64,000 nt of DNA from Eublepharis macularius (Eukaryota; Chordata; Lepidosauria; Squamata; Eublepharidae): NCBI RefSeq assembly GCF_028583425.1, contig NC_072801.1, positions 11,614,001 to 11,678,000 of the forward strand, in the 5' to 3' direction. Positions 6,910-64,000 of the stretch are shown here, in pieces (position 1 is the stretch's first letter; the number at the start of each line of letters is the position of its first letter). Under the pieces are notes generated by a model. It saw only the letters and a list, made by a program, of their open reading frames with translations. It did not search any database and had not been told where the DNA came from. Made by a program: the position numbers and the translations under genes.

Positions 6910-7136
6910 CAAATAAAACAGGAGTCCAGTGCCACCTTAAAGGCAAACAAAGCTTACTCCAACAAGAAGCTGTCATACGTCAGAGCTTACTTTATCAGAT
7001 GTTAGTCTGTAGTTGCAAAATAGTAAAAAGTCTGACGAAGAGAGCTGTGCGTATCTGACAAAAAGAGCTGTGGTTCTCAAAAGCTTGTCTCAATAAAGTT
7101 GGTTAGTCTTAAAGGTGCTATTGGACTTTTTACTAT
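6910..7136. repeat. Hammerhead-core short repeat, fold-back copy
   Basis: A minus-oriented half (GAGTCCAGTGCCACCTTAAA) is followed by a plus-oriented half ending AGTTGGTTAGTCTTAAAGGT. Two CTGAC[GA]A cores are present (7032 and 7056 regions), followed by stem II and AAAAGCTT. It is the same inverted layout as 54660..55062, but shorter and more decayed. Confidence 0.75.
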
Positions 7137-8461
7137 TTATCAGATGACAATCCATTATTGAAAAATTCCTGGGGAATCAAGTTAAACTTTATAATACCGA
7201 AAGCCAGTATGCGGCTAGTTCCACTGTGACTAGAAGAAATGGCTTCCATCCAAAAAAATACTCTATTATTTTACACACTTTATGCTTTCTATTGTCAACA
7301 TTTGTTCTCAGCTTCTCAGGTTCCAAAGCTAAGGCCCATGTGCTAAGGCAGCAAAGGTTATGGCAGAGGGGTATCCTTTGCAAGCATTTGTTTGGGCCAA
7401 CTACGGGGTATGGAAGAGAAGGAAGGAAGTCCCTTCAGCAAGCCCGTTTTCAACCCCACAATTGCCCTTGGCAACACAAGGGCTGTATGGCACACAACTG
7501 CTGCTGACCCCAGAACAACAGAGGACCGTCGCATGAGAAGTGAGTGAGCAGTTAAAAGTTTAGTGTATTCATGCACGTGGCATGCATGCACCACACACAC
7601 AATCCAGGATTTCCTCAAAACACAGAAAGGCCTTCTATCTCCAAGAAGCAGAATGGATACAATATTGAACCACCATCCACTATGCATGGACTTCAGAAGA
7701 CATCATCTGTGGTTTTCCACTACAATTATATCCACTGCTTACAGATATTAAAGTTAGCAACTGCCTTTTTTAAAAAACTGTATTAAAACTTAATGAACGA
7801 TTAATGTTGTTCTCTTCCTCCAATCCCAACATTATTGTTTTGTAGAGATGTGCAGTTTTTGTTTTGTAGAGATTTTGTAGAGATGTGCAGTCATCTCTAC
7901 AATATGATTGGAAAAAAGGCTATTTTAGCAAACATCTCCCTCCTACTATTGCCAAAGAAACTTCCAAAATTCAAGCTTTACCTTGGAAATTAAACCATAA
8001 TGTCTCTGCAGCAATTCCCAGGAAATGGCATGTTACTTGGCTATGGGGCGGGGGGGAGGGGGTTGTACACATACACAAACTTGTACGAGTGCTCAGCTGT
8101 AGCTCCTCTTTAAAAGCAAACAATACTAAAACTTTCTAATTCCCATCATATCAGTGAACCACATTTCTTAAAGAGGACAACCTTCCACGCTGGAACGTTA
8201 ATGTACCATTAATGTGCCTTGAATTCTCCAGCATTCAGCCACAACCAGCAGGTTAACTGAAGAGAAAGCACACAGCACCTCTCCAATTTACAGACAGTGC
8301 ATGTACCTAGACTGCCATGTGACTGGCCCTTAGGATGTTTTTCTATTGTCTAGCCCATAGGATGTGGCAACAATTGTGCATTCCTATTCCATGTATCTCC
8401 CTACAGCAGCATCCACCAGAACAGAAAATGTATAGGGCAACAGACACTATGCTCATGTGGG

Positions 8462-8690: not shown

Positions 8691-11600
8691 TGACCTCAAA
8701 TGTCTCAGAAGGCCACCTCAACCACTGAGATTTCCCTGTATAGCAGATACTTTATTAGAAAGGTTTCATGCGCTTGGGTTGCAGGGCGGTCATCACTACC
8801 TAGCAACAGAACCTCAAGCCTCTGACCCCAGTGGAAGCATGCCTATCCCTCTCTTCCCTTGACTTGTCCTCTTGCCAGCCCTACAAAACATCCTGTGCTG
8901 CTGTCAGGAGCAAGTCTTTTCAAACAGGATGCCAAGGATGCAAGACCGTAAGAGAAGAATGGGCCAGGCTCTGCATTCTCATTCACAACAAGGGAAGCTG
9001 ACAGAAAGAAAGGCATTTCCAAGCAAGTTATTTCGTCATGCACAGATTAAGAAAAATCACAGCGTCTTCAATTTCCACATCCAGTACTTTACATGCTTAG
9101 GCTGTTTAATCTTTGTCTGATTGTCCACAACTTGATCTTTGAAAGCCTCCTATTGTTCACGGAGATGTAGTTAGGTGTGCACAAACACTCTGTGAATTGA
9201 CAAACATTAACCAGCAAAAGCAGGCTAGAAAGAGACCTTGCACAACAAAACAAAAGACCCAACGCCGGTTTATCACACAGACTCCTCTGGGGATGCTGGT
9301 GCTTCTTACGTAAGAAGAGACAAGATAAACAGAAGGTCCTTTAGAACACTGTGAAGCTCATACAGCCGAGATCATTGTGTAACATGCAACATTTTCCTTC
9401 ACCATATTTTGCCATATAACAAAGGGTTTCTTTTAAACATAAGAAAGCCTCCAGCAGCTTTGGTCTGAGAAACAGACTGGTTTCTTGATTGGTTTGTATG
9501 GGTTTTTTCTTGAAAAAGATTTTTCTACGGGGTTGGGGGGGGAGGTCCAAGAGAAAACAGAGATAACACATGGAACAGATAACTCTGCCATCTCCAAGTG
9601 TTGGATGTTTTTGCTGCATCCTATCTAAGCAAGTGTACCGGGGGATGAAAAATGGTGTTTTTCATGCTAAAGATTGTGGGGAAACATCAAATTAGGTCCA
9701 GTAAAAAATATGACACTGGGAAACGCCATTCACTGGCATTTTCTTTAGATAACCAAGAGCAGAAATGTCAGGTTTCAACACCGACAAACCATTCTGTTAG
9801 TGCCTTGTTAGCATTGTAGGTTCAACCTCAATATAGCTGTAAGGCATTAAGTCATCCATTTTCATAACAGCAGCAGGCTGCTCTCTCCCCCTCTCAAAAG
9901 TGATAATGGGCATTTCAGCGGAACACCCAGCAACGACAGGATTATTGAATGGGCTATCTAGGAAAACTCTCCTTTCCCCTAACATAGTGAACGTAATTAC
10001 AGTCCGATTGACATCAGGTGCTTCAAAAGCTTGGGAGGGAGGGTAAAGACCAAGGGAGAGGAGGAAAAAAATATGGATGCCTTCTCTCCATCCTAGCTCT
10101 TCTCAGGGAATTCAGGATTCAGTCTACATGAGCTGTTTCTAAAAACTCATTACAATACTGACTTGGCATCATCCTGAGTTGGAGGGAAAGGACCCACAAG
10201 CCCTCCTTCTGTCTTCAAGCCTAAAATCCTCCTCTGACACCCACACATCTCCAAAAACCTTGCAAAGGTGGGAGGAAAATGGAAGCTTCCCTCCAAATCG
10301 CCCCCAACCTCCACCCCTGAGTTCCATCTGTAGAGGTGGGCAATTGTGTGGTGTGTTCCCACGGCCATCTTTCTCTCCCTAAATTCTTTTCTGTGGGGGT
10401 GATGAAATGGGGTGGGAGCAGCCTTTCTTCCTTACTCTCCCTATTTGCTCCACAAAAGTAACTTCACAGTGAGACACATCTGGGGAAGGAGAGAGGGGAG
10501 TTTTCCACAGCCCACAAACCTGGCTGCAAGAACAGCCAAGACGAGAAATAAACAAAATACTCTGTTCCTTCTCCCTCCCGTTAAATCTGGGGGCAGGAAG
10601 GGGGGGGATGGAAGATGGCTGGGGGGGTTGAAGGAGAGAAGAAAATGAAAAGTATCAAGAGGGCATACAAAGACTCCCTCGAGATGAATGGGGAGGGGGT
10701 GAGAAAGACAGATTACAAATAAAGAGAAATAAATAAACGAGGCTAATATGAAAAACTTGGGAGGATAACGTCCAAAAAAGGGTCTATTTCAGTCTTTCCT
10801 AAACCTCTGCCTTTAACATCCAGAGGCAAAGCCATTTCCGGACTGAATTGCTTCAAGCTGTGGGGGGGGAGAAACAGCCAAAGAAAGCTCTCCACAAACA
10901 AGCTCCCCTTCACACAGATGATCAGCACCTCAGGAAGTGATGTCTGGCTTAGACTTCTCCCCTAAATGCTATTCTCTGCCCCCCCCCCCATATCCAAGGC
11001 AGCCTTTGTTCACAAGCATCCTTCAACCACGCATATCCCCCACCTGCAGCCGGAAGTGGTACAGTCCAGGGAAGGCTGCACCACTGGCCTTTGAATGTAT
11101 GAACCGGGCATTGTGTGGGGAGGGAAGGGAGTGCAAAGGACAGGAAGAACACGTTTCCTGTTTTAAAAAGGGAGAAATTATTATTTCAGTTATGGGATTT
11201 TTGGAAAGGAGGGGAAAATGGGTCTGGGAGGATTGTGACATATGAAGGAAACTGTGCACTATAGGAAACAGGCAGTGTTTAGGGGGAGCTGGGGGAGAAG
11301 AAAAAAAATGAAAGGATGATATGAACCCCTATCTTATCCTGAAGCTCTCTTCGGAAGGGAGATTGTTGGGGGGTGTAAGGCACATATACAGAGAGTGACA
11401 TGTGGGGAGGGGAAGAGAAGGAAGAAAGCATCAGATGCCCCGCCAAAGTCCCTCTGATCACTCAATATGGGGAAATTGGGGGGCCTACAGAAAAGGTGGT
11501 TGTGTGTATGAGAGCGTATGAGGGACCTGCGAGGTAACTGATGGGGGGGAGAGATGTATGGGGCTGTGCTCCACTCTCCCCTCAACCTGAATTATGAAAA

Positions 11601-11830
11601 AGGGTTGTTATGCATATCTGGAAGGAGGGGAATGTGATGCTGGGTGGGGGTACGGGGTGATTGAAGGAGGACGAGAGGAAGGAGAGGAGAGTAGGCCCGT
11701 TCAGACGTGATCTGGGAGATGCGTGTTCACATCTTCCTTGCGCCTTTTTAATGCACGGCAGGGGGGAAGCGAGGGCCGGAGGGGCCGCTGGAAAGGAGGA
11801 GGGACCTGCCGGGCCGTCCCGCAGCCTCAC

Positions 11831-11956
11831 CTGCTGGTACTCGGCGTCCTCCGGTCGGAAGTCGTCGCCGGTGGCCTCCCAGCGGAGGCTGAAGTGGGGC
11901 AGGCGGTGCAGGAGGCTCACCCACCAGGGCGGCGAGTAGCTCACGCCCGCCGCCAT
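11831..11956 (-). CDS. TTYH3: TTYH3 (tweety family member 3), first coding exon
   Basis: This exon encodes the first 42 residues of a tweety-family protein. The peptide starts MAAGVSYSPPWWVSLLHRLP and ends FRPEDAEYQQ, which matches what I recall of the human TTYH3 N-terminus (MAGVSY..PWWVSLLHRLPHF, FRPEDTDYQQ). The ATG has G at -3 and G at +4, a strong Kozak context. The exon ends in phase 0 after CAGCAG, followed by the donor GTGAGG. Tweety proteins are five-pass plasma-membrane glycoproteins associated with calcium- or volume-regulated chloride conductance. This exon is the extracellular N-terminal tail before membrane segment 1. Segment 1 (human LLLLGAAALACLALD..) is not found in 1..11830, so intron 1 runs off the left edge. 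The frame stays open upstream of the ATG, but only the chosen start fits the family. The rest of the gene is outside the window. Confidence 0.93.
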
Positions 11957-12167
11957 GGCCGGCCCGGCCGCCCCGCAGCCCCTCACAGGCGCGCCGCCGC
12001 CGCCATCATGCGCCGAAAGGTCGCGCCGCCGCCTCGCCTCAGCCCGCAGCCCGGCCGGGCCCTTCAAGCCGCCCGGCGCGTCTCCCCGCCGCCGCCGCCG
12101 CTGCGGCTCCCCGGCCGAGGCTTCCCGCCCCTCATGGCCGCCGCCTCGCCTCGCCTCTCGCGCTCCT

Positions 12168-12193
12168 GCCGCCGCCGCCGCCGCCGCCGCCGC
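12168..12193. repeat. (GCC)n / (CGG)n triplet repeat upstream of TTYH3
   Basis: Nearly nine uninterrupted GCC units lie about 210 bases upstream of the TTYH3 ATG, so the transcribed strand would read CGG. The position fits the 5' untranslated region or core promoter. CGG runs of this kind are often polymorphic in length. Confidence 0.9.
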
Positions 12194-12560
12194 TCTTTGT
12201 TCGCCCAGAGCCTCGCCTCGCCTCCGCCTCCTCCCCGCCTAGCGCCGCCTACCCCGGCCGGCTCCCTCGGCGGCGCCGCCTCGGCCGGGCCCGAGCGGGG
12301 AGAGGGGGAAGGACGGGGGAGGCGCGGAGCGGGGCCCGCGGAGGGAAGGGGAGGCCGCGTCGCCGCGGGCCTCGCTGGGCGCCCCTCGCGCTTAAGCGGA
12401 GCGACTCGAGGCTATGGGGCTACGCCGCCCGGTGTGCGCAGCCTTGGCACGCCGACCCCTGGGCCCCACTCGCGCACGCCGCGACAGGCACCCGCACGCT
12501 GCCCCCGCACACTGGCGCGCACAGACCCCTTTTCCTCCATACAAGCCACGACTGGCGCTC

Positions 12561-14696: not shown

Positions 14697-14928
14697 GTTA
14701 TTATAATGGTTGCCCTTTCAAGCCTCTCCTCCTCCACCCACTCCCCCAAAGCATGCTCCCTGGGTATTGGTACTATTTAACACATTCTGGCAATGTCACC
14801 TTGCACTGTGCCCTGGCACTCCACCACTGATGCCATGCTGCTTCCTTTGTACACATGTAGCACCACATCACAGCAGCCCTGCTGCATCCGTTGCCTGCCT
14901 TCTCAAGATTTCAGCAACTGGGACTCCC

Positions 14929-15052
14929 GCATCTGACAAAGAGAACTGTGATTCTCGAAAGCTTATGCTTCAGTAAAGTTGGTTAGTCTTAAAGGTGCTA
15001 CTGGACTCTTTTCGATTTTGCCACTACAGACTAACACGGCTAACTCCTCTGG
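14929..15052 (+). repeat. Hammerhead-core short repeat (best single copy)
   Basis: The order is GCAT, CTGACAA, a stem II of GAGAACTGTGATTCTC, GAAA, then GCTTATGC. In the hammerhead frame, GCAT pairs with ATGC as stem I, and AGCT is a palindrome able to form stem III only in a dimer. One core base deviates (CTGACAA for CTGANGA). The tail GTTGGTTAGTCTTAAAGGTG, then ACTACAGACTAACACGGCTA is shared by all copies. Confidence 0.8.
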
Positions 15053-15439
15053 ATCTGGGACTCTTAAGAATCTTACTACAACGGGGAGGAGGGGTGGAGT
15101 GAGATAATATAAAAAAGTTGCTAACCCTGCAGAGAGGATAAAAACTAGAGCTTTTCATTTAATTCATTTAAGGACTACACGGACAATGGCTGGAGGCAAG
15201 TGCCCAAACTAGAGTTCATAGTAGTTGTATGTGCATCTTCCCTTGCAGTTAAGGGACAGGGAACCGATAAGATGAAGGGAGGAGGAGGGAACACAGACTT
15301 CACTGCTATTGCTATAAGGATGATCCTACTGGGTAAATAAATAAAATGTGTGCATTTCCCTAGGTATGAAAATAATCCCAGTTTTGGTAAAGATAAGCAG
15401 GTCCTGGATCACTCACTCTCAGCCAAACCTACCATTGTT

Positions 15440-17734: not shown

Positions 17735-17838
17735 AAGAGTCCAGTTGCACCTATAAGGTCTAACAAAATTTGTGATAGGGTATGAGCTTTCGTGAGTCAC
17801 ACAGCTCACTTCTGCAGAGTGTCTCGGAGAAAACTTCT
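17735..17838 (-). repeat. Hammerhead-core short repeat (minus)
   Basis: On the minus strand: CTGCAGA, AGTGAGCTGTGTGACTCAC, GAAA, GCTCAT, then the shared tail in degraded form. Stem II (GTGAG/CTCAC) is intact. The first core element has one change. Confidence 0.75.
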
Positions 17839-23934: not shown

Positions 23935-24012
23935 CACTGCAAAACTCCAGTGGCACCTTAAAGACTGACGGCATTTATTTCAATCTGAGCTTTCCTGAGT
24001 CACAGCTCAATT
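23935..24012 (-). repeat. Hammerhead-core short repeat, degraded (minus)
   Basis: AAAACTCCAGTGGCACCTTA then AAGACTGACGG is the reversed tail. GAGCTTTCCTGAGTCACAGC is the reversed GAAAGC and stem II. The first core element is lost. Confidence 0.65.
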
Positions 24013-25172
24013 TCCGGGGCCAACAGAACAGGTAACTGAACCCTTGGTAAGAGAGCCAAAGCCACACATTTCCCACGGGCACCACCAGGTTTCTGCCTTA
24101 GCAACCCTGCAATGCGTGAGCATGTTGGCTGGCCAGTCCACCCCGTAACACTGAGAGATAAATTGCAAATCTCTATGGATTAACACATGCCAAATTGAAA
24201 GCCTCTCTCTCCCTTTCATCCTGTTCCTAACGTTTTGCTAATGGCTCTCTATTACTGCTTGCTACTGTGAGGGAGAGGATTCGGTTCCACCAAATCCCTG
24301 CTCCTAGCAGCTCCCTGCATACCAAAGTCTGGGGGAAATATTTTGCTCCTCTCTCGGCCCTTATGATGTGCTCCGAGCTATGAAACTCCTGACGTTTCAT
24401 CATTGTCGTCTGCAGGGATACCTCTAAGACTTAATTACAACTCAAAGCAAGCAACTCTGCAGGCTGGAATATTTTTTTTAAAAAACACACTCAAGTGCTA
24501 GAACCCCCAGCCTCCTGCTCCCCCAACCATAACCATGTGACTGGGACAGCAGCCGGAATTAATCTACCCAAACGGTGTAAACCTTGCTCTGGACAGCTCC
24601 CAGCAGCTGCCTCTGGAAACACTACAGACGGCGTTTTCCCTGATGGGATTAAGAAAAAAAAATCATCTGCTGTGTACAGCCGCCATCCTTTCTGGCTATA
24701 AGTACCAGCATGAGTGACGTTAAGTGTCAGATAAAGAGCAGTGTCAGCCCATGAATTAACAAGCGTTTGGCATGGTAGCAGGAAGCCAAGTTTCCTTTTT
24801 TATAATGTTGAAAGAGAGAGGCTGCAACAGGGAAGCAGCAGAACAAGAAATATCTTTCAAGGAACAGAGAGCTCAATGCCTTCAGAAGATGCAAATGGCT
24901 TAGCGTTGCCGTTTCTTCCTTCTTGGGTCGCAGTGAAATAGTTGCAGAAGCCAGTTGGATTCCTTTTATGCCTTTGAATGGCAGACTCATATGCAATGCA
25001 ATTTAGGGGTGAATGGGTGCTCCCTCATCCCTTCTTTCCCCTTGTTTGCCAAGCATGTCAGCAATCAGCACAAAATTTCATGGGACATTTATATCCATTT
25101 GTATCCCACTTTTCAACCAGATCAGCTCTCAAAGCTGCTTATAATTAAAACCTAAGAGAGTATCACAAGGAG
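24013..25172. other. Intergenic, no gene seen
   Basis: A short repeat trace with TATCCCACTTTTCAACC near 25100 resembles a SINE 3' body. The PLE described next has inserted at its end. Confidence 0.5.
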
Positions 25173-28100
25173 ATACAAACCCAAGAGAAATTTGTGAAAC
25201 CTAACTAACAACAATAAACAACAATCATATGTTTCAATCATGTGTAATTATTGTAAATATATCAATATATCAAGTGCTATAATTTAACAAACGTTGTATG
25301 CTATATAATTCAAACCACACAACAACCATACAGCAGTGCTGAAATTCTACAGTACATTAATTTGTTAGGGGAGGTCACAGTTAAAGTGCTATGTGCTATG
25401 CCTTACAAATTCCTCAAGTCCATATAAATATTTTCTTTAAAGTGCAAGGTTCTAAGGCAAGGTGTAGTCCATTCAAGCACCCTGTGCCTCACAAATAGTT
25501 AATCCAGTAACAAACTGTTAGGACGCTGCCGAGGAAATTAGAAAGGGAAGGAGCAGTCCAACCATGAACAAGCCATTGACGGATGGACCAGTTCCTGAAA
25601 AAGCCGTTTCGGATCTTCTTCAAAGATAGCAAGATGGTACCACAAAGGGTGCTGATGCTTTTCTTAATTGTTTCCTAAGGTGCAAAGGTACAATATGATA
25701 TACAGTTGCGATAGTATAAATAGTCATAACAACATTGTTTTACAATTCCAATTGTACTCACTTAACAGTATAATAATTCCATACATGCATCAACCCCCCT
25801 CCTTCATGAAAGTCAAATACAAAGGTGCACGTATGAACAATTACAAGATGCCTATTTTATACAACGTCAACCAATTAACTAATCAGAACTATCAAAGAGA
25901 CATACCGGCCAATAGCCACCATGCATGGCAACAGGGGAAGAAATTCATTAAAGGTGACTAAAGGTAGCAGGAGAAATCATTGCTTGCGTTCAGACCTCCC
26001 GGGGCCAATGTATGTAATCTATAGATCCAAAATGTTTCCTTTCTATGAATATCAATCACAGCGGTCTCTGAACGTTTTTCCTTAGTCACATACAGTACGG
26101 TGTATTCAAAGTCCCGATCACTATGACCTGCCTCTAAAAAATGACTAACTAAGGGAGCCTCTAGAACACCATGGCGGATACAGGACTGGTGTTCGAGGAT
26201 ACGTTGTTTGACCTGACGAGTGGTGCTACCGATGTACAATAGTGCACACTTGCATCTTATTAAATAAACTACATTTTGTGTGTTACAATTACTAAAGCCC
26301 CGGGTCGTTTTTATGTCCAACCTTTGGAAGTCCCGTTTGTTGAGTACCAGAGAACAAGCCTTGCATCTTCCACAACTATAATGTCTCACAGGTAAGTGGC
26401 TAGGAACCGATGCAGTGGAGGACACAAATTCAGATCTAATTAGAAGGTCCCTGATGTTACGTGTCCTGTGAAATGCTATTACCGGGGATGCCTGGCACCC
26501 TGGTATATCTGCCACCAAATGCCAATGTTTGTAAATGGCCCTCCTAATATCATATGCGAGGGGGGGGGTATAGTCCAAAAAGCATTTCATTCTGGAGTCT
26601 ATGTTCCTTTTTTGTAAAGTTAAGAGATCTTCACGTTTTGCCAGTCTAGCCCTCTGTAGAGCTTTATCAATAATTTCAGCTGGATACCCCCTCGATGCAA
26701 ATTGTTCAGTCATTATTCTGCTATTGGTATTATAATCAACCGATCGGGTGGAATTCCTTTGTAACCTTAAAAATTGTCCAAAGGGGATGTTATCCCTTAT
26801 ATAATGTGGGTGAAATGAGCGATAATGCAAATATGACGCCCTGTCAGTTGGCTTCCTATATGGTCGAACTGCCAAACGGTTGCTATCATCCCTGAATATC
26901 GTAAGGTCCAAAAAGTCAATTTGATGTGCACTGTAGTGCCAACTAAATCGTATGTTAGGATGGATACCATCCATCCATGTGCAAAGGGACTCTGCTTCTT
27001 CCATTTCAGCATAAATGATGAGTAAATCATCCATATAGCGGCGGAATAGTATAATCTTCTCAAAGAAGGGATTATTGGTGGGGTTACAGAAAAATCTTTG
27101 TTCCAGGAAGTGCATAAACATATTAGCTACACTAGGTGCAGCAGTGCACCCCATAGCCACCCCCTTGGTCTGCAGGAAAAAAGAGTTGTCAAATTTAAAG
27201 TAATTTTGTTCCAAGACCACTTCTAACAATGAGACCAGAAAATGAGTGGGTGGCAACAAGCTAGGGCGAAGATTTAATGTGTCCTCTACCACCATCCCAG
27301 CCTCATCGTGTGGTATGCTGGTGTAGAGAGAGGGTACATCCATCATGAGTAGCACAGCTCCCTGGGGAAAAACCATCCCCTCCAGTAGGCTAATTACGTC
27401 TCTCGAGTCCTGCAAAAAGGTAGGCATCTGTTTTACAAAAGGCTGTAGAAAAGTATCAATGTACTTTGATAGGGGTTCAAGTATGGAATTAGATCCCGAT
27501 ACTATAGGTCGCCCCGGCGGGGGGTAACCCTTGTTTGTGAATCTTGGGGAGTAAATAGAACACAGGTGTCCTTGGCTGAGTATTAATAAGGGCTCTATGA
27601 GTCTGTTCATTTAGCCCAGTGCCAGTCCCTCATCTACTGTGATCCTAATTATGTTGGCAATGTGGTGAGTTGGATCATCTGGTATCGGCACATAACTGCC
27701 CCCGTCTGACAACTGTCTTCTAACCTCCCCCACATAATCTGATTTATTCAAAGCCACGATCGCCCCTCCCTTATCTGCCTCTTTAAATATTATCTCTGAG
27801 TCCGTCGCCAATTTTTCAAGTGCAGTGCGTTCCTCACGAGTAATGTTATGCCCCTTGCATATTTTATTGGATTCAATTTTACTAATTTCTTTAAGGATCA
27901 TATTTTCAAATGTGACAACATGCGGGTCATTAATGTTAGGCACAAAATTAGATTTAGTTTTAAGAACAGGCACTTCAACCGTGTAGTTGACTCACTGAAG
28001 AACAACCGCAGCTTAAGTTGCTGTATTAACTTATAAAAGTTTTCAGACCTGGATTGATATATATAAGTTAATACGGCAACTTAAGGTCAAGGCACAGGGT

Positions 28101-28402
28101 GCTTGAATGGACTACACCTTGCCTTAGCACCTTGCACTTTAAGAAAATATTTATATGGACTTGAGGAATTTGTAAGGCATAGCACATAGCACTTTAACTG
28201 TGACCTCCCCTAACAAATTAATGTACTGTAGAATTTCAGCACTGCTGTATGGTTGTTGTGTGGTTTGAATTATATAGCATACAACGTTTGTTAAATTATA
28301 GCACTTGATATATTGATATATTTACAATCATTACACGTGATTGAAACATATGATTGTTATTTATTGTTAGCTAGGTTTCACGAATTTCTCTTGGGTTTGT
28401 AT
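25173..28402 (-). mobile_element. Penelope-like element with inverted terminal repeats
   Basis: A 3.2 kb element. Segments 25173..25489 and 28090..28402 are inverted copies of each other, differing at only scattered positions. Penelope elements are known to carry pseudo-LTRs in direct or inverted order. The flanks share ATAATTAAAACCTA (25141..25154 and 28401..28414), a likely target duplication. The coding part on the minus strand carries a reverse transcriptase and a GIY-YIG endonuclease. A further 20-bp hairpin with CTTAAGTTGC arms lies at 28011..28086, just inside the right terminal repeat. The coding region has about one break, so it is a young, nearly whole copy. Confidence 0.93.
25958..27610 (-). 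CDS. Penelope-like reverse transcriptase with GIY-YIG endonuclease
   Basis: A 550-codon frame. Residues 22-38 (PRFTNKGYPPPGRPIVS) form an RT region. RT motif A has aspartate 91 in LLMMDVPSLYTSIPHDE. Motif B is at 149-165 (KGVAMGCTAAPSVANMF). Motif C is YMDD at 192-195. A linker with CxxCxxC cysteines follows at 413-419 (CGRCKAC). The GIY-YIG endonuclease runs from 446 (NVVYLIRCKCALLYIGS) with arginine 470, histidine 474, glutamate 525 in KETFWI and the closing PGGLN at 537-541. This order, with the cysteine-rich linker, fits the Neptune-type Penelope lineage. The more N-terminal RT portion (FKEADKGGAIVALNKSDYV) lies directly upstream to about 27973. The protein would prime and copy its own RNA into chromosomal DNA. 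The lineage name is inference. Confidence 0.92.
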   Translation of the reverse strand: MNRLIEPLLILSQGHLCSIYSPRFTNKGYPPPGRPIVSGSNSILEPLSKYIDTFLQPFVKQMPTFLQDSRDVISLLEGMVFPQGAVLLMMDVPSLYTSIPHDEAGMVVEDTLNLRPSLLPPTHFLVSLLEVVLEQNYFKFDNSFFLQTKGVAMGCTAAPSVANMFMHFLEQRFFCNPTNNPFFEKIILFRRYMDDLLIIYAEMEEAESLCTWMDGIHPNIRFSWHYSAHQIDFLDLTIFRDDSNRLAVRPYRKPTDRASYLHYRSFHPHYIRDNIPFGQFLRLQRNSTRSVDYNTNSRIMTEQFASRGYPAEIIDKALQRARLAKREDLLTLQKRNIDSRMKCFLDYTPPLAYDIRRAIYKHWHLVADIPGCQASPVIAFHRTRNIRDLLIRSEFVSSTASVPSHLPVRHYSCGRCKACSLVLNKRDFQRLDIKTTRGFSNCNTQNVVYLIRCKCALLYIGSTTRQVKQRILEHQSCIRHGVLEAPLVSHFLEAGHSDRDFEYTVLYVTKEKRSETAVIDIHRKETFWIYRLHTLAPGGLNASNDFSCYL

Positions 28403-28619
28403 AATTAAAACCTATCATATTTTTAAAAATTAAAAGTTGCTGAAGTTCACAGGTGCCTTGGAATTTTGCCCTTTGCAGCAGGTGAAGCTTGATGAAATGC
28501 ATCATCATCAATTGGGATCTGGAAGAATCCTTAGACTGCAGAAAGGATCATAGTGGGAGGAGCCTCTCGGCTGCTTGTCCCCCACTGTCACCCCGCCTTT
28601 CAACTGCTGATGGCTTCAG

Positions 28620-35218: not shown

Positions 35219-35415
35219 AGGGGCAGTAGCTCAGCAGCAGAGCATTTGCTTGGCATGCAGAAGGTTCCTGTTTCAATGGCCGGCATCTCCAGCTAAAAGG
35301 ATCCGGAGATGCGGAAGACCTCCACCCGAGACCCCGGAGAGCCTCCACCGATCCGAGAAGACAAAACCCATCTTGACAGACTAAGCGTCTGATTTGTATG
35401 AGGCAGGTTCATGCG
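35219..35415 (+). mobile_element. tRNA-derived SINE (family B)
   Basis: GGGGCAGTAGCTCAGCAGCA, then GAGCATTTGCTTGGCATGCA, then a body ending GACTAAGCGTCTGATTTGTA. It lies between the MITE and the IQCE stop codon, possibly inside the IQCE 3' UTR. Confidence 0.85.
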
Positions 35416-39014: not shown

Positions 39015-39130
39015 CCTATGCATCTGACAAAGTGAACTCTGGCTCACAAAAGCTTCTGCTGGAAATGATTATGTTAAATCTTTAACTTGTTTTATTCTGC
39101 TGCTACAGACAAATATGGCGACCCTTCTGA
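39015..39130 (+). repeat. Hammerhead-core short repeat
   Basis: GCAT, CTGACAA, AGTGAACTCTGGCTCAC, AAAA, GCTT then CTGC. Stem II (GTGA/TCAC) is intact. The core has the same G-to-A change as at 14933 and one change in GAAA. It ends with ACAGACAAATATGGCGACCC. Confidence 0.75.
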
Positions 39131-44277: not shown

Positions 44278-44541
<264 letters not shown>

Positions 44542-44882
44542 AGCTTCTGCCCATGACTGATGCAAGTGAGATTTGGACCACTAGGGCTATGTCAGCTTCA
44601 AGGCACCCACATTTATGCAAGTCTGGGAGTATTCAGCAATTCTACAAAACTGCACTGAGCAAATGCAAAAATCTGTACTGGATACATTAAAAAATAAAAC
44701 AGGTTTCTTACAATTGTAAAGACAGGCCTGAAAATGTGGGGAGCATCCACAGGAGCCCCAAAATGCTTTTGTCAAAGGGTTTTGCTAAACTTCGCCTCCT
44801 CTCAGCCACCAGTTCTGTGCTCAGCAACAGCTTCTTCCCAGGCCCCAAAGGAAGTCCCGGTAGGTGGCTGAAAGAGCATCAC

Positions 44883-52556: not shown

Positions 52557-54640
52557 CCTTGCTCTTATTCCCCCCTCAATATTTTAATTATGGAATTGTT
52601 CCTAATGAAAAGCTTAAGGTTTTCAGCAATTTTTTTTTTAAAAAAAAGCAGATACATGTAAAAGATACCAGTGCTTTTTAAAGGTTTTGCTATCACGCTC
52701 AAGAGCACCTTTTTATTTTGCAAGACAGACAGATACTGGTATCAGCCCCTGCATATGGAAGCCAGGAAATGGAAGGTCAAGGGGGAAAAGTCTCTGCAAA
52801 AAGACTGCCCTTTCCAGAAAGAGGAAACAGCCTATATAATCAATTGCATGCCCCAGCAGAGGGATTTTGAATACTGTTAAAACGTATGACTCGGAACCTG
52901 CTCATGCTGAAAAGGCAAAGGAAGATGGGTATGTATGGAAGGGCGAGAACGAAACGTCATCGAAAGCACCCAGCATAAAGCTAGTGAAGAATGTATTGGT
53001 TTTCATTCAAGGAAGACGGGCCCAGTCATGATGACCATGCTTGCTCACAGGTAAACAAACCCTAAGGGTTTTAAGAAAGGACTTTTTTGTGCACAAATGT
53101 GCTCAGGATCACAACCCCGTTGATCCTCACTGGAAGGGAGAGTGCCTGCATGGTGCTACACTAGAACTCTGGGCCCAGAATGCCAACCTTTAAATACATT
53201 TGGCCACCTTCTTGTACCTTCGCTCCTGTCTATGGCTTTCAAGAGAGAAAATCAAGTTAAATCTTATTGATATTTTAAAAAAACACTACCTTGAGCTCCG
53301 TGGTGCTGCAGCCTTCCTCTAGCAGCACCATCTTTTTCTCTCCCCCCATCTTCTTCCTGAGAGATTCCATGGGTTTCTTCCTTCTCTTTCACCTGATCTC
53401 TATCTGGGCAACCTGGAGAGTTAAGCCTCTTCCCCCATCGAGAACAGCAAGGTCGGCTACAATTCATTCCCCGTCTGGATCCTCCCTCCCTGCCAATCTC
53501 ATGCTACTAAAATATCACTACTAATGAGGCACTGAAGTTTTAGTAGCCCTTCTCAAGACTGCATTTTTTATTTGCAATTAATTCACCATATCTGGGACTG
53601 TACACTCTATGCTCCACTATTAACCACAACTACATTAATTAATCGACAGTTTGTGCCAGCATGGCTGAACTTCAGCCCCTAGCTTGGAGCCTTTCCTATG
53701 GCCATCCTGGGGTGCCATCTTTTTTCCAGTCCAACTGCCGCCAAGGGAGCTAGCTGTGGAGGGAGGTTTGCTCTGGCCACAATTATGGAAAAACCACCTG
53801 TCCATGACCCAGGTGGGGTGACGATATAAGCACGTGTGGAGATGGTGACGAGGCCAAGCACTGAGAGGGTCACGTTGCATTTAATGCTGCTCAATGGATT
53901 TGAGGCAGGGCCAATTACATACCACCCACAAATCTGAGATCTAGACCCCGTATGTTAAGAAACCTGGTCCAACCATGCTTTACAGAGCAGGTGCATAAAA
54001 ATCCAGACGTGGACTTGTGAATCTGAACACTGCCCCCTTTTGTTCTCTCCATCGGTGGCATTAAGAATGAAGGAAAGATGGCGGCAGTCTTTTCCCCAGT
54101 CAACAGTTGTGTTACAGTCCAAAACACAGAACTTTTACAACATTTTTAGGAGGCCTGGATGCAGGGGCTGGTACGTTTAATTCCTGATCAGCACACATTA
54201 TCAACTGCTGCATCCCTCTTTAAAGACTATTTTCTTTTTGGCAAGCCCAGGGAGGTGTCTATCTGTTTACCACTATTTAACTACCTTGGTGTTCAGAAAA
54301 ACTAGGCTGGAGACCCCAACCCATGGACGCAAGCAGCTTCACCTATCTTTTTTCCTGCATCAAAGTCTTGGGTGAATCAACACTCCCTGCACAATTCCCA
54401 GCGTTTAATCCTTTTGTAACCAAAGAGGGCTAAAACATATATTTCTTTGTAAGAAGTGGATTTTTTTTTAAATCAAGATTTTCAAGACTTCCAGATTTGT
54501 GCCAGATTTCTCACTACCCTGACTACAGGGTTACTTGTCCATTACTTGAAGCACTAACTGAGGAGCACCTACCAGTTCCATCCCAGGCAGTCTCTTCTAA
54601 AGCTCAGTCAATGGGCTTAGAAGGGTGTAACTCTGCTTAG
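52557..54640 (-). other. IQCE: IQCE intron, no exon accepted
   Basis: A lysine/glutamate-rich open stretch at about 53280-53440 was considered and rejected as an exon. No element was classified. Confidence 0.5.
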
Positions 54641-54644
54641 AATA

Positions 54645-55062
54645 CAGAGGAGTTAGCCGTGTTAGTCTGTAGTCACAAAATAGTAAAGAGTCCAGTAGCA
54701 CCTTTAAGACTAACCAACTTTATTGTAGCATCGTCAGCTTTCAAGAACCACAGCTCCCTTCATCACATGCATCGTCAGCTTTCAAGAACCACAGCTCTCT
54801 TCGTCACATGCATCGTCAGCTTTCGAGAACCACAGCTCTCTTCGTCACATGCATCGTCAGCTTTCGAGAACCACAGCTCTCTTTGTCACATGCATCATCT
54901 GACAAAGAGAGCTGTGGTTCTTGAAAGCTCATTTGACAAAGAGGGCCGTAGTTCTCAAAAGCTGACGATACATCTGATGAAGACAGCTGTGGTTCTCGAA
55001 AGCTTATGCTACAATAAAGTTGGTTAGTCTTAAAGGTGCTACTGGAATCTTTACTATTCTGC
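54645..55062. repeat. Fold-back repeat with tandem hammerhead-like cores
   Basis: Outer arms of about 60 bases (54671..54730 and 55003..55062) are inverted copies. Inside the left arm are four 41-bp tandem units (54729..54892). Each reads, on the minus strand, GTGACGA, AGAGAGCTGTGGTTCTC, GAAA, GCTGAC. Inside the right arm are three plus-strand cores. The last, at 54971..55009, has the exact CTGATGA and GAAA with GCTTATGC. The left end AGGAGTTAGCCGTGTTAGTC is the standard terminus of the family. Confidence 0.85.
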
Positions 55063-55736
55063 TTAGGATGGCACTGTAAGTTACTAAAGACTTCTCGGAA
55101 TGCTACTGGCCACTGCAGGGACCCTGCTTTGAAGGTTGGAAGAGGGCTTGTTTTTAACACTAAAGGTCGTATGTCAGAACTGTGTTCTGCTGCTTTCTGA
55201 CGGCGTTTCCAAGCAGCTTAAAACCTGATTAGGAAGAGGAACATTTTCTTGGTGTGTCATTTGTATTTGTTTAAACCTAATGAAATTTTTAACATATAAC
55301 AAGTAACACAATCAACTAGAAAATAAACATTGGGAACCAATATCTTAAAAGGAAAGAAAGGACTCCAGATATTCACTGAATATTCACTGTATGCCCTTAA
55401 GTTTAACTGTTTTGTCTTAAAAGGGGTTTTAGATACGGGACTACAGCCTTTAAGAAACTGCTGTCTTCATTTAACAGGTGCAGATTTCATCGTTACGTAG
55501 AGGATACCCTAAAACTGAAACTTGCCCTCCCATCCAAAGTCAAGAAACCTTTGGAAATAACATACGCAGGGCATGGATACAGTGAAGTAATCAATTGTGT
55601 GTGTGTAGGGAGGGATCACAACCCAAAACAACATCTAAATGACGACATTTTACGTTTTTACTGTCCAGCTAGTGTATATAAATTAAGGCACCAAAAACTT
55701 ATACACGTGCATACAGCTCCAAGGAAATAAACATAC

Positions 55737-58139: not shown

Positions 58140-58222
58140 CTGCATCTGAAGAGGTGAGCCCTGACTTACAGAAACTCATGCTGGAATAGCTTGTTAGTCT
58201 TTCCCGTGCCCCTGGACTCCCA
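58140..58222 (+). repeat. Hammerhead-core short repeat with intact core elements
   Basis: CATCTGAAGAGGTGAGCCCT then GACTTACAGAAACTCATGC holds an exact CTGAAGA and a GAAA separated by a GTGAG/CTTAC stem II. The tail is AGCTTGTTAGTCTTTCCCGT. Confidence 0.75.
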
Positions 58223-61429: not shown

Positions 61430-62065
61430 GATGGACAGATGGACGCCTCCCCCTTGGGGAAGGAAATTCTACATGCCGGGGGGGGGGCGGTCTCCCTCAC
61501 CCCAGGACATGCATGGGAGGGAAGGATGGACGGATGCCTCCCCCTTGGGCGGGGAGGAAATTCTACATGCCCGAGGGGCCATCTCCCTCACCCCAGAACA
61601 TGCATGGGAGGGAAGGATGAATGGATGGACACCTCCCCCTTGGGGGGAGGAAATTCTACATGCCCGGGGGGGGCGGTCTCCCTCACCCCAGGACATGCAT
61701 GGGAGGGAAGGATGAATGGATGGACGCCTCCCCCTTGGGGGAGGAAATTCTACATGCCCGGGGGGGGGCGGTCTCCCTCACCCCAGGACATGCATGGGAG
61801 GGAAGGATGGACGGATGCCTCCCCCTTGGGCGGGGAGGAAATTCTACATGCCCGAGGGGCCATCTCCCTCACCCCAGAACATGCATGGGAGGGAAGGATG
61901 AATGGATGGACACCTCCCCCTTGGGGGGAGGAAATTCTACATGTCGGGGGGGGCTATCTCCCTCGCCCTGGGACGTACATGGGAGGGAAGGACGGATGGA
62001 CACCCCTCTTTGGGGGAGGAAATTCTAAATGCCCGGGGGGGGGGCGTCTCCCTCACCCTGGGACA
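61430..62065. repeat. GC-rich minisatellite, about 91-bp unit, seven copies
   Basis: Each unit has CCTCCCCCTTGGG, GAAATTCTACATGCCCG, a G run, TCTCCCTCACCCCAG and CATGCATGGGAGGGAAGG. Three unit types recur in the same order, so 61500..61700 resembles 61785..61960, giving a higher-order period of about 277 bases. The open plus-strand frame of 211 codons is a consequence of the repeat, not a gene. Confidence 0.93.
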
Positions 62066-63145: not shown

Positions 63146-64000
63146 TTACAGCCTCCCGCTCCCCGCCCCCGCTGCACCCTCAACCCTCCATCCCACTTTT
63201 TGTGCCTGATACCTGTGCACTGTTCTGCACAGGACCTTCTCCCAGTCCTGCAGCTGGCTGTCCCACATGGCGATGCTGCCCTTTATCCGGGGATCACATA
63301 TGTATGCCAGTGTGTATGGCTGCTCCTGGCAGAGAGGATGCAAGCGGGCAGCTATGCCGCCTGCAACCTCCTGACCAAGTCCCTGACCCTGGGGCAAGAT
63401 CTTCCTCATTCTCCACCTTGTCGACCAGCACCCGGCCCAGCCCGTAGATCAGGGGGATGACCTGTCCCACGCTGGTCTGGTATGAGCATAGGAGCTCAGT
63501 GGCGTCCTTAAAGGGCTTAAGGACACAGACCCTCTGGGAGAGGGCGAACCAGACCGCATAGCTGATGCTGACCTCCTCTCCCTCCCACATAATAGCCACA
63601 GACAACATGATGTCCTGGACTGGTTTTTGCTCCACCAGAAGACTAACCATGGTGGAGTTCCAGCGGGTGGAGTTCCAGCGGGTGGGCATGTTCTGGTAGA
63701 GGTAGTGCTTGGGATCGCCCCCCTCCCCCTGCCTCTGAAGCAGCTCACGAGAAGACTTCACACTGCGGGAGTAGTGCGAAGCCAGACACCGGCGGTTTTC
63801 CAACAAGTCACGCATGGACAATGTTCCCTGGTCCCAGGGAACCTAGCCCAAGAGCATCCGCCATGATCAGGTGCAGCTTATGCGTCAGGCAGACAAGGCC
63901 ATTGAGGGATGCCTCTCTCAGCGCTGCCAGCATGCTGCTTCCCGCATCGGCGACCATGATGCCACGGACAAAATCACCCCCGGGGCCCCACTCCCTCAGC
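63146..64000 (-). pseudogene. hAT transposase (ZBED/Ac-like), partial and frameshifted
   Basis: On the minus strand from the right edge: FVRGIMVADAGSSMLAALRE and GLVCLTHKLHLIMADALGLG match the catalytic-domain region of hAT transposases (D.GSNM..., C..H.LNL....AL). Then comes MPTRWNST with a small in-frame duplication (RWNST twice), the MPTRWNSTY..L.R..EQ motif. A second frame (63146..63409) continues with LAYICDPRIKGSIAMWDSQL, the LDPR.K region. The change of frame near 63300-63400 shows at least one frameshift. Cut DNA transposition would be its role if whole. The C-terminal dimerisation helix is not recognised. It may be unrelated to the MITEs above. Confidence 0.82.

Follow-up and report, generated by a model that had tools for sequence, protein, structure and literature searches.

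Minimal type I hammerheads are reportedly carried in the pseudo-LTRs of Penelope-like elements (PLEs), according to Cervera and de la Pena in 2014 and Lunse, Weinberg and Breaker in 2017. In the accessible parts of two sources (PMC7761336, PMC6466107), the hammerheads of PLEs were described as minimal, arranged in tandem and possibly cleaving as dimers, and the accessible part of a third described minimal hammerhead copies in tandem in axolotl PLEs (PMC7229834). In the Anolis Poseidon element, the ORF starts at stem II and reverse transcription starts 111-118 nt into the ORF; there are two adjacent start sites with a tail of 30-40 bp between them, and the protein both cuts and extends each strand (PMC11167929). 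The Penelope elements of the rotifer Adineta vaga have inverted pseudo-LTRs, target duplications of 9-10 bp and an optional 31-bp tail on one inverted pseudo-LTR, as given in the accessible part of PMC3846280.

The window, that is, the whole 64,000-nt stretch of DNA analyzed here, contained an insertion that combined these features. The first-pass annotation had recognized a fold-back array at 54645-55062. The array was real and its limits were revised: the direct repeats flanking it were taken as a target duplication, and the insertion thus spanned 54644-55057 (414 bp, measured from the target duplications on both sides), with the following features.

54632-54643, no strand: left target-site duplication TCTGCTTAGAAT, 11/12 identical to 55058-55069
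54644-54678, minus strand: 3′ extension (35-nt tail), present on the minus-strand pseudo-LTR copy only, from the sequence and the arm alignment
54679-54727, minus strand: pseudo-LTR body of the left arm, inverted repeat
54728-54891, minus strand: four tandem hammerhead-type units of 41 bp, from TRF and the unit listing, predicted inactive
54890-54895, no strand: ATGCAT palindrome at the head-to-head centre, matching the six bases predicted at the start of a 5′ end made by ribozyme cutting
54896-54929, plus strand: plus unit 1, core CTGACAA (G8 to A), GAAA, AGCT, C
54930-54970, plus strand: plus unit 2, core TTGACAA, AAAA, AGCT, G, predicted inactive
54971-55012, plus strand: plus unit 3, core CTGATGA and GAAA intact, AGCT-T, predicted cut at 55005/55006
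55013-55057, plus strand: pseudo-LTR body of the right arm, ending ..TTTACTAT(T), tail-less, from the arm alignment
55058-55069, no strand: right target-site duplication TCTGCTTAGGAT, 11/12 identical to 54632-54643

The insertion consisted of two head-to-head copies of a PLE pseudo-LTR: the minus copy comprised four units, the body and the 35-nt tail, and the plus copy comprised three units and the body and was tail-less. The inverted arms that had been noted at 60 bp were present, with a measured length of 56 nt (54676-54731 / 55006-55061) and 96% complementarity. Compared with the body, the array was by far the more divergent part of the arms. In single-copy form, the target site would read TCTGCTTAGRAT. 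The score of the 12-bp duplication was equalled in 12/3000 random edge pairs within the window, with offsets free by 5 bases each way and identical scoring, a comparison that is only partly fair because the duplication edges were picked with the repeats already known. The target duplication, the inverted pseudo-LTR copies and the 35-nt tail at one end, all of which mark a PLE, were found at 54644-55057. No telomerase-like reverse transcriptase (RT) with a GIY-YIG nuclease was found inside the insertion, which is therefore non-autonomous. We consider it highly probable that the insertion is a degenerate non-autonomous element of the Penelope/Poseidon type that would have been formed by two-sided priming with its enzyme supplied in trans.

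Relatives were searched for by BLAST of the 54644-55057 insertion against the 64,000-nt window. A second fold-back and a solo copy of the same family (BLAST match 14929-15054 for the latter) were recognized; the window also held one PLE of another family.

7002-7135, no strand: second, shorter fold-back of the same family, with a 17-nt tail on the left arm and a right arm ending TTTACTATT
14927-15054, plus strand: solo copy, made up of a single hammerhead-type unit, the pseudo-LTR body and the tail
25155-28399, minus strand: PLE of another family, with an RT ORF at 25958-27610 (minus), inverted pseudo-LTRs and a tail at the 3′ side only

The target duplication of the second fold-back (6991-7001 / 7136-7146) matched at 11/11 bp (5/3000 random pairs as good), and that of the solo copy (14918-14926 / 15055-15063) at 9/9 bp (12/3000). 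The second fold-back was nested in an older hammerhead-bearing pseudo-LTR copy (6922-7146), its target duplication lying within the old core region. Older fragments were detected at 6922-7002, 17735-17812, 23946-24008, 39018-39060 and 2104-2165; no target duplication was found at copy 39018, where the best match was 6/7. The window held no PLE protein of the same family, which counts against the proposed origin. Scans of viral and prokaryote collections gave no relatives, an outcome to be expected when the DNA is from a vertebrate. The putative PLE family name was taken from the anatomy and from published papers, not from a repeat library.

The window was vertebrate nuclear DNA, as shown by a CpG observed/expected ratio of 0.33 and by a minus-strand ORF at 11582-12238 that encoded the start of tweety homolog 3 (Pfam Tweety, E 2.2e-10; PDB TTYH3 chains, E 3.4e-18); this was the first coding exon of TTYH3 (minus), lying within a GC-rich stretch. 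Similar repeats would tentatively point to a reptile. A minisatellite with higher-order periods of 95/186/281 bp was located at 61430-62065, and pure (GGGAGA)n and (AAAG)n arrays stood side by side at 44279-44542. A tRNA-like match at 35220-35291 (35.2 bits) could be a tRNA-derived SINE. The minus-strand open frame at 63294-63842 was read by eye as the remnant of a hAT-type transposase and had no Pfam match at 0.01.

The copies of the family had two different 3′ ends. The right arms of both fold-backs (54644-55057 and 7002-7135) ended at the same TTTACTATT, and the left arms overran this point by 35 nt in the first fold-back and by 17 nt in the second. The solo copy ended at the outer point of the first fold-back and had the same tail (end ~15052). 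The reference points for the 3′ ends of the pseudo-LTR copies were TTTACTATT and CTCCTCTG. The distance from the outer end to the start of stem II was 115 nt in the first fold-back, in which a linker was three bases longer than the canonical form, and 112 nt in the solo copy; from the inner end to the start of stem II it was 76 nt. In PAc of Anolis carolinensis, a hammerhead is likewise followed by a stretch ending ~111-118 nt from stem II and by a tail (PMC11167929), although the ORF is absent from 54644-55057 and the hammerhead of PAc is described as single; this likeness is one of description, not of sequence.

The same anatomy was observed in the PLE of the other family. Its RT ORF at 25958-27610 matched RVT_1 (E 6.8e-8), the sole Pfam domain passing, and the GIY-YIG part was read by eye. 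Its inverted pseudo-LTRs were 231 nt long and 98% alike, extra tail-like bases were found at the 3′ side only of the 25140-28414 element, and it was flanked by a direct repeat (25140-25154 / 28400-28414) that matched at 15/15 bp (3/3000 random pairs as good) and that was taken as the target duplication, possibly plus end bases. Both the second fold-back and the PLE at 25155-28399 thus had the insertion anatomy of 54644-55057. The asymmetric ends, the published PLE anatomy and the like anatomy at 25140-28414 indicated that 54644-55057 was a fold-back insertion of a PLE pseudo-LTR. In the Penelope elements of Adineta vaga, inverted pseudo-LTRs, short target duplications, a one-sided tail and head-to-head palindromes also occur, but most have coding parts between the pseudo-LTRs and the accessible part of the source does not mention a hammerhead (PMC3846280).

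Two observations led us to infer two-sided priming: the 3′ ends are of two kinds, and the Anolis protein is active on both strands. In this mechanism, a PLE RT with a GIY-YIG nuclease, supplied in trans, would cut both target strands ~12 bp apart, and two pieces of element RNA would be copied, one per broken end. Reverse transcription would start at two internal sites, the outer one on the left, where the tail is kept, and the inner one on the right, where the tail is absent, and each copy would run to the RNA 5′ end within the tandem minimal-hammerhead array. The two cDNA ends would be joined head to head, and gap filling would yield the target duplication. The hammerhead units would have been inherited as parts of the pseudo-LTR, and any need for them would lie with the parent element. 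In both arms several units were in register and a GACGAT linker was common to both (between plus units 2 and 3 on the right), so at least part of the array predated the insertion. Against this mechanism, the divergence between the arms was concentrated in the array, and either two templates or later conversion must therefore be assumed.

The four tandem 41-bp units reported on the minus strand were recovered at 54728-54896 (96% matches, TRF score 303), as were the three plus-strand cores, in 45-nt stretches at 54893-54937, 54927-54971 and 54968-55012. The units followed the layout of a type I hammerhead, which starts with a GCAT-type stem I and passes through CTGANGA, an additional A, a stem II of 6 bp, GAAA, AGCT and a cleavable base to ATGC. 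The repeated order of core and GAAA given by the first-pass annotation was right as a layout, but the motifs themselves were not kept intact throughout: the middle plus copy read TTGACAA/AAAA and the minus units had G for the first C of the core. Its reading of the last plus copy stood for CTGATGA, GAAA and the following GCT, T and ATGC, whereas the stem I given as GCAT/ATGC was really ACAT/ATGC, with three pairs and an A-C mismatch. The same order of the core, the missing helix III, the palindromic AGCT, the tandem units and the adjoining pseudo-LTR body are found in the published minimal hammerheads of PLEs; unlike these, 54644-55057 carried four and three units in opposite orientation in one insertion, none of them fully intact.

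The cores were broken in almost every unit. All four minus units had the core GTGANNA (C3 to G) and carried G directly after AGCT, at the cleavage position. In plus unit 1, G8 was changed to A; in plus unit 2, C3 was changed to T and G8 to A, GAAA had become AAAA and a G followed AGCT; plus unit 3 had an intact core, a stem II with a C-C mismatch and a stem I of three pairs. The copies at 7049, 14927 and 39018 all had G8 to A, with AAAA as well at 7049 and 39018. AGCT was found in 10/10 aligned units and was followed by T or C in five and by G in the other five (the four minus units and plus unit 2). The CTGANGA core and GAAA were both kept in one unit of ten (54968-55012), at least one of the two being altered in every other unit, and none of the ten kept all strict hammerhead requirements. 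The extra A would be tolerated in a hammerhead, and a G at the cleavage position would block hammerhead cleavage. The C3G change alone abolished cleavage of the Anolis hammerhead (PMC11167929). Judged from these sequences, the 54644-55057 array has decayed and is expected to be inactive in its present copy. Much of the change at G8 would be CG to CA, the usual CpG decay. The near-identical minus units with a common C3G would fit a later homogenization or amplification of an already broken unit, which argues against cleavage driving the growth of the array.

Several statistical tests did not back the hammerhead reading. Stem II was paired in 93% of cells, which shuffles equalled (162/500), and its covariation came down to one two-sided change (A-U to U-A, copy 39018), with shuffles as good in 185/500. 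The single-strand folding of five stretches, including those of 45 nt and 86 nt, did not go beyond shuffles (z -1.22 to 0.46). The bare pattern CTGANGA..GAAA matched 11 times in the window against 6.2 expected, and 5/100 shuffles were at least as high; since the bare core pattern is common in the window, significance came from the repeats and the related copies, not from the core motif. A strict minimal-hammerhead pattern, with at least 4 unbroken pairs in stem II and at least 3 pairs in stem I, had no match in the window and none in 200 shuffles; no copy in the window was complete under it, and the scan carries no significance either way.

No Rfam hammerhead model reached its gathering score in the whole window. 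With the E limit relaxed to 10, scans of 54600-55100 and of the solo copy (14900-15070) likewise gave no hammerhead match. The first-pass annotation had named this outcome in advance as refuting its hammerhead reading. We did not treat it as decisive, arguing, and only arguing, from PLE variants without helix III, the helix that such models score; these variants are published in PMC6155905, as far as that source was accessible. Twenty Rfam matches to microRNA and other models over 54600-55100 fitted the long inverted repeat, were all below gathering scores and were rejected. A covariance model built from the 10 units recovered its own members with E 2e-9 to 2e-15 for the 7 listed, scores that are high by construction and in which overlapping array units are counted once. 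Four further weak matches (E 0.011 to 0.076), at 58140, 23980, 6960 and 17777, look like old copies. The layout, the place beside RT start sites as in Anolis and the published papers, rather than a model score, suggest the hammerhead assignment. On these grounds the units are probably related to the minimal type I hammerheads that PLEs carry, with a dimer stem III predicted from the palindromic AGCT. The earlier proposal of hammerheads of the PLE kind, with stem III formed only between monomers, was thus right in kind and matches the published minimal PLE type.

The fold-back had been attributed to multimeric or rolling-circle RNA, and an active retrozyme-like array would release self-cut 41-nt or small circular RNAs. 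The tandem 41-bp units of hammerhead layout and the palindromic AGCT available for a dimer speak for such an array, and metazoan retrozymes do yield RNA circles of ~170-400 nt, according to the accessible part of PMC7229834. The non-LTR retrozymes of metazoans share tandem type I hammerheads, with dimers needed in vertebrates, but their repeats of ~170-400 nt have one hammerhead each, as far as the same source could be seen, whereas the unit of 54644-55057 is a 41-bp hammerhead alone, and this length counts against membership. The four minus units combine C3 to G, which by itself kills cleavage in Anolis, with a G at the cleavage position; 0/10 units were fully intact, Rfam gave no hammerhead, and the lone 45-nt and 86-nt stretches folded no better than shuffles. 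The target duplications, the tail and the inverted copies are explained without circles. We regard an active array as very unlikely, and the attribution to multimeric RNA found no support, as the published PLE insertion anatomy suffices. The layout of fold-back and micro-tandem that the first-pass annotation did not recognize also has precedents, tandem hammerheads and inverted pseudo-LTRs both being published PLE features; each feature of 54644-55057 is already known for PLEs, and the insertion combines them as a further example of that kind.

A fold-back could also arise if one cDNA primed itself on an antisense template, or by template jumping. Head-to-head palindromes were read in this way by the rotifer authors, who preferred self-priming on an antisense template over two-sided priming (PMC3846280, accessible part), and the ATGCAT at 54890-54895 lies at the centre, as such a reading would have it. 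However, one template hardly gives 3′ ends with and without a tail in both fold-backs, the arrays of the two arms differ in sequence and indels, and the Anolis protein extends both strands, so that we think this origin unlikely. That an older solo pseudo-LTR was later duplicated locally in inverted form would account for the array parts that are alike in both arms, but one target duplication encloses both arms and the second fold-back is equally asymmetric, and we hold this to be highly improbable. A DNA transposon of the fold-back kind, or a MITE, that had terminal inverted repeats and had captured hammerhead-like repeats would share the inverted arms and flanking direct repeats; it is scarcely credible given that the inversion reaches one end only and leaves the 35-nt tail unpaired, that the length of the target repeat varies by copy (9, 11, 12) and that a non-inverted solo copy has its own target duplication.

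The 5′ ends of the copies were compared with the predicted cut site. Only the five-prime-most units were examined, in which the upstream sequence should stop at the start of the copy; within the array it continues into the previous unit. Seven of the 10 started 0-6 nt downstream of the predicted cut, two (17777 and 2064) were too diverged to place, and one (at 24013) started ~12 nt in, or had decayed there; the count was made post hoc, similarity-based copy finding favours whole units, and the two ends of the first fold-back are not independent. Of the first eight of these units, seven retained the ATGCAT that follows the predicted cut, wholly or in part, or started at most 6 nt away. The next 14 bases upstream matched at 3-7/14 positions, no better than random positions (mean about 4). 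The left arm of the second fold-back had no unit, which counts against phasing by the cut site. The ATGCAT at the centre of the first fold-back (54890-54895) is identical on the two strands, as would be the sequence shared by two cut-ended cDNAs; three further bases (CAT) follow it, which makes the overlap at the junction imperfect. The phasing hints that ribozyme-cut RNA served as template, and it is taken as a lead only, in view of the post hoc count and the similarity-based collection of copies. We tentatively speculated, while leaning somewhat against it, that the 5′ end of the mobile RNA is fixed by the hammerhead cut, that copies would consist of whole 41-nt units counted from that cut and that AUGCAU ends might anneal the cDNAs head to head. 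A mapping of PLE 5′ ends to the hammerhead cut was not reported in the open-access literature that we found.

The role of the hammerhead in PLEs is called unknown in the accessible part of PMC7761336, and the Anolis element inserts in vitro without cleavage (PMC11167929). The insertion at 54644-55057, whose two 3′ ends differ, cleanly shows the footprint expected of two-sided priming. Genomic copies record the RNA ends that were used, and starts at the cut across a whole genome, as for most copies in the small sample of this window, would show cleavage in real insertions; the question of the cut site is testable with existing genomes. If this were true, the hammerhead of PLEs would gain a role in integration, and both the dispersed short hammerhead copies and the fold-backs would be explained.
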